Below, piece after piece: positions 46,904 to 47,972 of a stretch of 64,000 bases of DNA (positions within the stretch are counted from its first letter, which is position 1; each line of letters opens with the position of its first letter). The stretch is from Candidatus Nitrosopumilus sp. (lineage in GTDB: Archaea; Thermoproteota; Nitrososphaeria; Nitrososphaerales; Nitrosopumilaceae). The DNA is taken from NCBI GenBank assembly GCA_029863275.1, contig JAOTVS010000002.1:32996-96995 (forward strand). The letters run 5' to 3'. The notes beneath the pieces were generated by a model that was not told the origin of the DNA, searched no databases, and saw nothing but the letters and a program-made list of their open reading frames with translations. The position numbers and the translations under genes were made by a program.

Positions 46904-47110
46904 TCAATTCCAATTATATTGTTTTGATAAAATTTTCTTGGTTCTTGATTTTGTTCTGAGGATTGCACCACAACAAGGGCACCTTACACTGGCAATAGTT
47001 AGGAACAAACTACACATTGAACATCTTTTTTGACCAATCTCGTATCTTGAACCGTTTGGGACTTTTTCTCCTTTAAATTCTACACAAATTCCTTTACAGC
47101 AATATCCCAT
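46904..47110 (-). CDS. Zinc-ribbon miniprotein (third of overlapping operon)
   Basis: MGYCCKGICVEFKGEKVPNGSRYEIGQKRCSMCSLFLTIASVRCPCCGAILRTKSR. Confidence 0.8.
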   Translation of the reverse strand: MGYCCKGICVEFKGEKVPNGSRYEIGQKRCSMCSLFLTIASVRCPCCGAILRTKSRTKKILSKQYNWN

Positions 47111-47283
47111 TAATAATCACCAACTCCAAATGTATCGTGACAGCATGGACATCGGCTATACTTTGACACCAATGTCAAATTACATGTCGGACAATGTTTT
47201 CTAAAAATATCTACTTTAGAATCCCTAAATGAGGAGTCAGCATCATAATACTTGCAAACACTTCTACAAGCATTCTCGATCAA
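47110..47283 (-). CDS. Zinc-ribbon miniprotein (second of overlapping operon), TTG start
   Basis: (M)IENACRSVCKYYDADSSFRDSKVDIFRKHCPTCNLTLVSKYSRCPCCHDTFGVGDY*; AAGGAGA upstream; TTGA and TAATG overlaps with neighbours. Confidence 0.72.
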   Translation of the reverse strand: MIENACRSVCKYYDADSSFRDSKVDIFRKHCPTCNLTLVSKYSRCPCCHDTFGVGDY

Positions 47284-47447
47284 TTTCGATTCTCCTTTAC
47301 ATCAAAAAACATGTTGCATTCTTTACAAAAAATACCATAGTTTTCAATATTTACTGACAGACTTCCACAATTTACACAAATTCGTATAGCCCTGTTTACA
47401 GTTTGTTTTTTTTCTTCAAACTTTGAGTGAACTAACTTTGTCTCCAT
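47280..47447 (-). CDS. Zinc-ribbon miniprotein (first of overlapping operon)
   Basis: METKLVHSKFEEKKQTVNRAIRICVNCGSLSVNIENYGIFCKECNMFFDVKENRN*. Confidence 0.72.
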   Translation of the reverse strand: METKLVHSKFEEKKQTVNRAIRICVNCGSLSVNIENYGIFCKECNMFFDVKENRN

Positions 47448-47454
47448 GGGTATT

Positions 47455-47514
47455 ATTAGGAATCAATCCTAATTAAGTGTTATTATCAATTAGGAATTAT
47501 TATCAACTAATAAT
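47455..47514. promoter_or_regulatory. Three tandem Fur-box-like palindromes in the divergent fur/zinc-ribbon promoter
   Basis: 47455-47473 ATTAGGA-ATCAA-TCCTAAT; 47480-47496 TTATTA-TCAAT-TAGGAA; 47496-47514 ATTATTA-TCAAC-TAATAAT; TATAAATA at 47518-47525. Confidence 0.72.
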
Positions 47515-47546
47515 AGATATAAATATGATAAATTTTTATAAATACC

Positions 47547-47972
47547 ATGCAACAGTTGGAGCAATTAGTGTCATCCTTAAGAGAGGAGGGCTTTAGAATT
47601 ACTCCTCAAAGAGTAGCTATTTTGGATTATCTTTTAAGGACAGACGATCATCCAAGTGCAGAGTATATTCATAAAATTATCAAGAAAAAATACCCCATGG
47701 TCAGCCTCTCTACAGTCTATAAAACACTCAATCTTCTCAAAGAAAAAAAACTAGTTAACGAAATTGAAGTTAATGGGGAATCTAGATTTGATGCCGATAC
47801 TGATGCGCATATCAATTTAGTCTGTATGAAATGTGGAAAAATAGATGACGTCGATGAAGATACTCTAAAAGAAATTCAGAATCGAGCTGCAAAAAAATCA
47901 AAATATCTCATTTTAAAAGGAAATTTTGAACTAATTGGTTATTGCGATAGTTGTAAATCTAAATCCATCTAA
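47547..47972 (+). CDS. Fur-family metalloregulator (Fur/PerR/Zur)
   Basis: FRITPQRVAILDYLLRTDDHPSAEYIHKIIKKKYPMVSLSTVYKTLNLLKE; CMKCGKI, CDSCK. Confidence 0.94.
   Translation: MQQLEQLVSSLREEGFRITPQRVAILDYLLRTDDHPSAEYIHKIIKKKYPMVSLSTVYKTLNLLKEKKLVNEIEVNGESRFDADTDAHINLVCMKCGKIDDVDEDTLKEIQNRAAKKSKYLILKGNFELIGYCDSCKSKSI

Follow-up and report, generated by a model that had tools for sequence, protein, structure and literature searches.

We describe here what is probably a small, self-contained and self-regulating stress switch, marked by two conserved palindromes, in the draft genome (1.76 Mb) of an archaeon of the Nitrosopumilaceae. Its regulator is best read as PerR-like, an autoregulated repressor of mostly local reach that acts on an iron/peroxide-response operon; to this reading we give a probability of roughly 0.6. 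In the window, by which we mean the whole stretch of 64,000 nucleotides that was analysed, a fur/perR-like gene on the plus strand and three mini-genes, A, B and C, on the minus strand diverge across an intergenic region of 99 bp. The first-pass annotation was right about this length, about the Fur regulator itself and about the TATA-like box in front of it. The features of the locus are as follows.

46904..47110, minus strand: mini-gene C, 68 aa, ATG start, Cys spacing like that of B; from alignments, dN/dS 0.078.
47110..47283, minus strand: mini-gene B, 57 aa, 7 Cys (CX3C...CX2C...CXCC), TTG start; co-occurs with Fur, dN/dS 0.085.
47280..47447, minus strand: mini-gene A, 55 aa, single CX2C...CX2C zinc ribbon; conserved beside fur, dN/dS 0.14.
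47455..47473, no strand: putative operator site A, ATTAGGAATCAATCCTAAT, with the TATA-like box on one side and the ATG of A on the other; dyad 7.5/9 over 32 loci.
47472..47490, no strand: AT-rich conserved middle element, from the alignment; dyad not above neighbouring AT-rich offsets.
47480-47487, minus strand: putative TATA-like box of the A-B-C operon, GATAATAA, within the middle element; promoter role suggested by its position.
47489..47507, no strand: putative operator site B, ATTAGGAATTATTATCAAC, just upstream of the fur TATA box; dyad 6.2/9.
47518..47525, plus strand: TATA-like box of fur, TATAAATA, about 25 nt before the ATG; aligned in relatives.
47547..47972, plus strand: fur/perR-like regulator, 141 aa, Pfam FUR E 6e-32; residues tallied over 32 archaeal loci.

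Sequence comparison indicates that this locus is real and strongly conserved. The minus-strand open frames of 55, 57 and 68 aa overlap as had been proposed: the TTG start of B overlaps the stop of A (4 nt, TTGA), and the ATG of C overlaps the stop of B (1 nt, TAATG). Most relatives retain the 1-nt B/C overlap, in the form of TAATG, TGATG or TAGTG, and in many A and B also overlap by a few nucleotides. Fur, A, B and C are all under purifying selection, with dN/dS values of 0.05-0.14 (0.047 for Fur) that are medians over seven same-genus loci and come from unsaturated pairs only, because synonymous changes are near saturation; the mini-ORFs are thus conserved as coding sequences. In a first panel of 121 relatives' genomes, 17 had Fur and 15 of these belong to the Nitrosopumilaceae; strong matches to A (E <= 1e-20; 13 genomes) and to B (14 genomes) all fell among those 15. 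Extending the count to 250 genomes of the family gave Fur in 37, B in 36 and both in 35 (Fisher P = 4e-39, a value that ignores shared ancestry). Wherever both are present, the listed coordinates place B within ~1.1 kb of fur, and these 35 genomes with B adjoining fur bear out the conservation of the trio's neighbourhood. The pair is patchy, being absent from three same-genus genomes (G006, G008 and G009). Fur occurs without B in G064, where dps is present and the trio has decayed, and in G288, where fur lies at a contig end; B occurs without Fur in one draft genome (G190). Close relatives of this Fur come from Nitrosopumilaceae MAGs, including Candidatus Nitrosomaritimum.

Two dyads of consensus ATTAGGAATNATTCCTAAT are present in the intergenic alignment of relatives, paired beside fur in about 30 loci, and their starts lie exactly 34 bp apart wherever both sites are recognizable. 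Dyad symmetry was scored at about 600 offsets in 32 loci, and mean complementarity over nine pairs was highest at site A (offset 0, 7.5) and second-highest at site B (offset +34, 6.2); the background elsewhere was 2.5 (sd 0.66), and only these two offsets stand out. Three tandem palindromes had originally been reported here. Two perfect repeats with 6-7-bp arms and a 5-nt spacer do exist in the 99 bp, at 47455-47473 and 47496-47514 (shuffle mean 0.09; P = 0.004 for at least two with 7-bp arms), but there is no further one. The first repeat is exactly the conserved site A. The repeat at 47496-47514 is present as described, but the dyad kept in evolution lies 7 bp upstream, at 47489-47507, and we take the repeat for local variation adjoining site B. 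The supposed middle palindrome (offset +17) scores 4.8, no better than neighbouring AT-rich offsets, and at this background level it was discarded as a separate operator. Conservation in relatives, on which the case for a regulatory role had been made to depend, was therefore found for two dyads.

Site A is recognizable even in Nitrososphaera, and the right arm of site B, decayed in this genome, is near-perfect in relatives. The arms have changed together in several relatives (AATAGG..CCTATT; ATTAAG..CTTATT in Nitrososphaera). The core is a 7-1-7 inverted repeat of 15 bp, TAGGAAT-N-ATTCCTA, with its own outer bases; it is exact at the fur loci of several relatives and has one mismatch in this window. 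The 7-1-7 arrangement is the general form of Fur-family boxes (PMC11353095). From its position, each putative operator is at one of two divergent core promoters, and the fur mRNA may well have a leaderless start. A dimer at either site could block initiation, so that repression of both genes, through binding of this Fur to sites A and B, appears plausible.

In the mechanism that we favour, a dimer of the PerR-like Fur protein, carrying Fe(II) or some other divalent metal, would bind the two 7-1-7 operators, with half-site TAGGAAT and 34 bp apart, site A overlapping the core promoter of the divergent operon and site B abutting the TATA box that precedes fur itself. The bound dimer would stand in the way of TBP/TFB or RNA polymerase at the two promoters. 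On losing its iron or being oxidized by peroxide, it would leave the DNA and the operon would be switched on; in this genome the operon is A-B-C, and in some relatives it combines dps with A, B and/or C. The co-produced zinc-ribbon mini-proteins would then most likely act on the transcription/translation machinery during stress.

The nature of these mini-proteins bears on that last step. A, B and C are probably small zinc-ribbon proteins that bind Zn via four to seven conserved Cys; the cysteines that are invariant in alignments number four in A, seven in B and seven in C. B and C look like paralogues, given their common spacing of CX3C, CX2C and CXCC. The C family has the pattern CX3C-X20-CX2C-X10-CXCC, with seven Cys and an LRT..R tail, and C-like proteins are found in 1-16 copies per genome in 85 of the 121 relatives' genomes. 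No Pfam or NCBIfam family matched A, B or C above its cut-off, and the viral contigs searched held no relative of B. AlphaFold models of A and C are of modest confidence (that of A has three short strands and a mean pLDDT of 69); a fold-match search with them returned nothing significant, and searches of solved structures with A and C gave only weak zinc-ribbon or ribosomal-protein matches. Measured against the C(P)XCG micro-proteins, which have two knuckles of that type in <70 aa, all three agree in length and cysteines; CX2CG and CX2C stand together in A only, and B and C carry CX2C and CXCC.

A possible context for their action comes from paralogues elsewhere, where an A-like gene, a TFB gene and a C-like gene stand in a row in this genome and in the matching loci of relatives, with part of the components read in some loci. 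The TFB-linked mini-gene clusters, with A and/or C paralogues, are as follows.

L148:2454-3696 (C41 of this genome, G000).
L149:2585-3827.
L155:2839-4000.
L156:2455-3517.

Ammonia-oxidizing archaea (AOA) carry extra TFB copies (PMC7554672), and roles in stress and regulation are known for small zinc-finger proteins of archaea (PMC6562870, PMC2253796). The TFB-adjacent cluster suggests that proteins of these families operate together with the basal transcription machinery, and with low confidence we favour a role of A, B and C in transcription or translation over metal buffering. The strongest of the alternative readings, which we consider possible though not probable, concerns this output and is compatible with our explanation of the switch. 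It holds that the mini-proteins are regulators of, or adaptors to, RNA polymerase or TFB whose dose is set by Fur, making the locus a regulatory hub and not a detoxification unit. Such a role would fit the A' and C' paralogues that flank the TFB gene in this genome and relatives, the presence of the TFIIB N-terminal ribbon and TFS4 among the fold matches of A, and the precedent of Halobacterium Brz, a small zinc-finger protein that regulates the genes next to it (PMC2253796). However, all of these fold matches are non-significant, and the other support is gene neighbourhood.

The regulator belongs to the Fur superfamily, PF01475 scoring 110.9 bits against a cut-off of 23.1. In a profile search its nearest solved chain is Bacillus subtilis PerR (E 2e-30), followed by Streptococcus pyogenes PerR (E 8e-27), and its best NCBIfam model is the PerR model NF052545, at 137.8 bits and below the equivalog cut-off of 180. 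The structural Zn site, formed by two CXXC motifs (C93/C96 and C133/C136), is conserved in the loci read, one of which is truncated at its C-terminus. Of the PerR ligand set (His37, Asp85, His91, His93 and Asp104), four of five are kept in 32/32 loci, as H35, D82, H88 and D101, and the set is incomplete because His93 is replaced by Asn90 in all 32. D101, equivalent to PerR Asp104, is Asp and not Glu throughout these loci, and Asp at this position makes Fur-family proteins peroxide-sensitive (PMC8638851). At the DNA-specificity position (PerR Asn61, in helix H4) all 32 loci have Lys59, neither the Asn of PerR nor the Arg of Fur, which is in keeping with a distinct operator. With four ligands and the Asp104 type kept, but with Asn90 and Lys59 in place of the PerR residues, we call the regulator PerR-like and do not file it as PerR, and these same two substitutions make peroxide sensing uncertain. 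Asn likewise stands in for His93 in S. pyogenes PerR (N101), an N101A mutant of which retains DNA binding (PMC3931707).

Two further Fur-like sequences were encountered. One in this genome (L002) reaches 22.2 bits against the cut-off of 23.1 and was rejected as a second Fur; it reads as an ArsR-like protein. The other (L053:5992-6378), from a Nitrosopumilus MAG, is an additional copy of fur that appears frameshifted; neither a recognizable operator nor mini-genes were found there.

The signal to which the switch responds is suggested mainly by partner genes. At four loci the divergent operon opens with dps, the gene of an iron-storage protein, followed by B and C in L017, by a remnant of A in L016, and by the A, B and C genes in L049 and L055. 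Three soil Nitrososphaera MAGs have fur with dps, and the models used detected no mini-gene at these fur-dps loci. In most trio-bearing genomes, including this one, the operon has no dps. Distant archaeal Fur homologues (37% identity) are, from the translations read, divergent from a peroxiredoxin gene in L018 and from a ferritin-like gene in L019. Partners of these kinds are the main argument for a signal that would most plausibly be iron or peroxide. The residues point the same way, as Asp82, His35 and Asp101, with no S-donor of the Zur type, together with dps in several relatives, argue for iron/peroxide and not zinc. A Zn- or Fe-responsive cassette had been proposed; the PerR-like ligands and the dps genes in relatives' operons favour its iron side and leave zinc unlikely.

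It might be asked whether iron alone is sensed. In such an arrangement iron-loaded Fur would repress, starvation would induce, peroxide would not be directly sensed, and the mini-proteins would serve metal sparing or buffering. The overall fold is of the Fur type, the residue at the position that separates Fur from PerR in specificity is basic (Lys59), peroxide chemistry could be weakened by the Asn that replaces the second regulatory His, and Dps is compatible with iron control too. However, position 101 is Asp and not Glu, and the best matches are PerRs. Dps, moreover, is normally not induced by iron starvation; on balance we regard an iron-only switch as unlikely. Less likely again is a Zur-like cassette, in which Cys-rich Zn-binding proteins would act as buffers or chaperones under the control of zinc status. 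Its products, with four to seven conserved Cys, are probably Zn-binding, but a Zur that induces zinc-demanding proteins during zinc starvation would be odd, and the alternate partner gene is dps, not a zinc uptake gene. In addition, the His37 and Asp85 equivalents are lost or changed to Cys in Zur (PMC4866751), whereas the regulator here retains both His35 and Asp82.

A mainly local regulon is likely, if not proven, from scans for the operator. Allowing at most one mismatch, TTAGGAATNATTCCTAA has a single match in this genome, at the fur locus, and two in the complete genome G038, both beside fur, and a reversed-pattern control at the same threshold gave zero matches in either genome. A variant pattern gave one further one-mismatch match here, inside an open frame. 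At two mismatches, 18 carrier genomes had 6-23 matches per genome among the matches listed; these were treated as background because, in a sample of 20 places in three genomes, ~15 fell inside long open frames and the rest look weak; secondary targets may nevertheless exist. The two ferritin-family genes of this genome have no operator in the flanks read. Of the 81 genomes scanned, four carry a one-mismatch site although this Fur was not found in them (G023, G040, G015 and G043; loci L108-L110, L114 and L116), so the motif alone is not proof. That Fur is a mere neighbour, with the palindromes serving a different regulator or being an oddity of the promoter, is very improbable: these four genomes and an operator sequence unlike known Fur, PerR and Zur boxes are in its favour, but site and fur travel together, the 7-1-7 form is that of the Fur family, the dyad changes on both arms, and the placement is autoregulatory.

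Our preferred reading, the PerR-like local repressor, has its closest solved relative in B. subtilis PerR. Common to both are the structural Zn(Cys)4 site and the equivalents of His37, Asp85, His91 and Asp104. The B. subtilis regulon includes mrgA/Dps and an autoregulated perR; Dps is a partner gene in relatives of the present locus, and self-control is suggested here by site B. Unlike B. subtilis PerR, the regulator has Asn for His93 and Lys for Asn61, its operator is TAGGAATNATTCCTA and not the PerR box, its strong sites lie only at its own divergent promoter, and its setting is one of archaeal TATA promoters and a zinc-ribbon operon. Group A Streptococcus PerR, the second-best solved match, shares the Asn (N101) at the His93 position, but its N-terminal ligands His4/His6/His19 are absent here. 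The mini-proteins resemble the Haloferax C(P)XCG proteins and Halobacterium Brz in being <70 aa with one or two cysteine knuckles (PMC6562870, PMC2253796). They differ from such archaeal zinc-finger micro-proteins in that A, B and C have no match above cut-off among the family models, in the CX3C-X20-CX2C-X10-CXCC pattern of B and C, and in belonging to a Fur-linked operon.

Marine ammonia-oxidizing archaea are mostly without catalase, and their peroxide tolerance varies (PMC6593220). The literature found names no archaeal peroxide regulator for them, and the literature searched describes no Fur, PerR or zinc-ribbon system in AOA; subscription journals were mostly outside this coverage, so novelty is provisional. 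A bolder and rather unlikely view would make the locus a largely single-target archaeal PerR-like switch whose co-translated zinc-ribbon trio, under stress from peroxide or iron, retunes either basal transcription (TFB/RNA polymerase) or translation. If true, this would be a metal-sensor-to-general-transcription-factor circuit, not described before. The locus provides a specific DNA site and uncharacterized miniprotein families, of which the C family is multicopy across the group, and, for ~15% of the Nitrosopumilaceae genomes examined, it supplies candidates for the sensor, the operator and the target operon.
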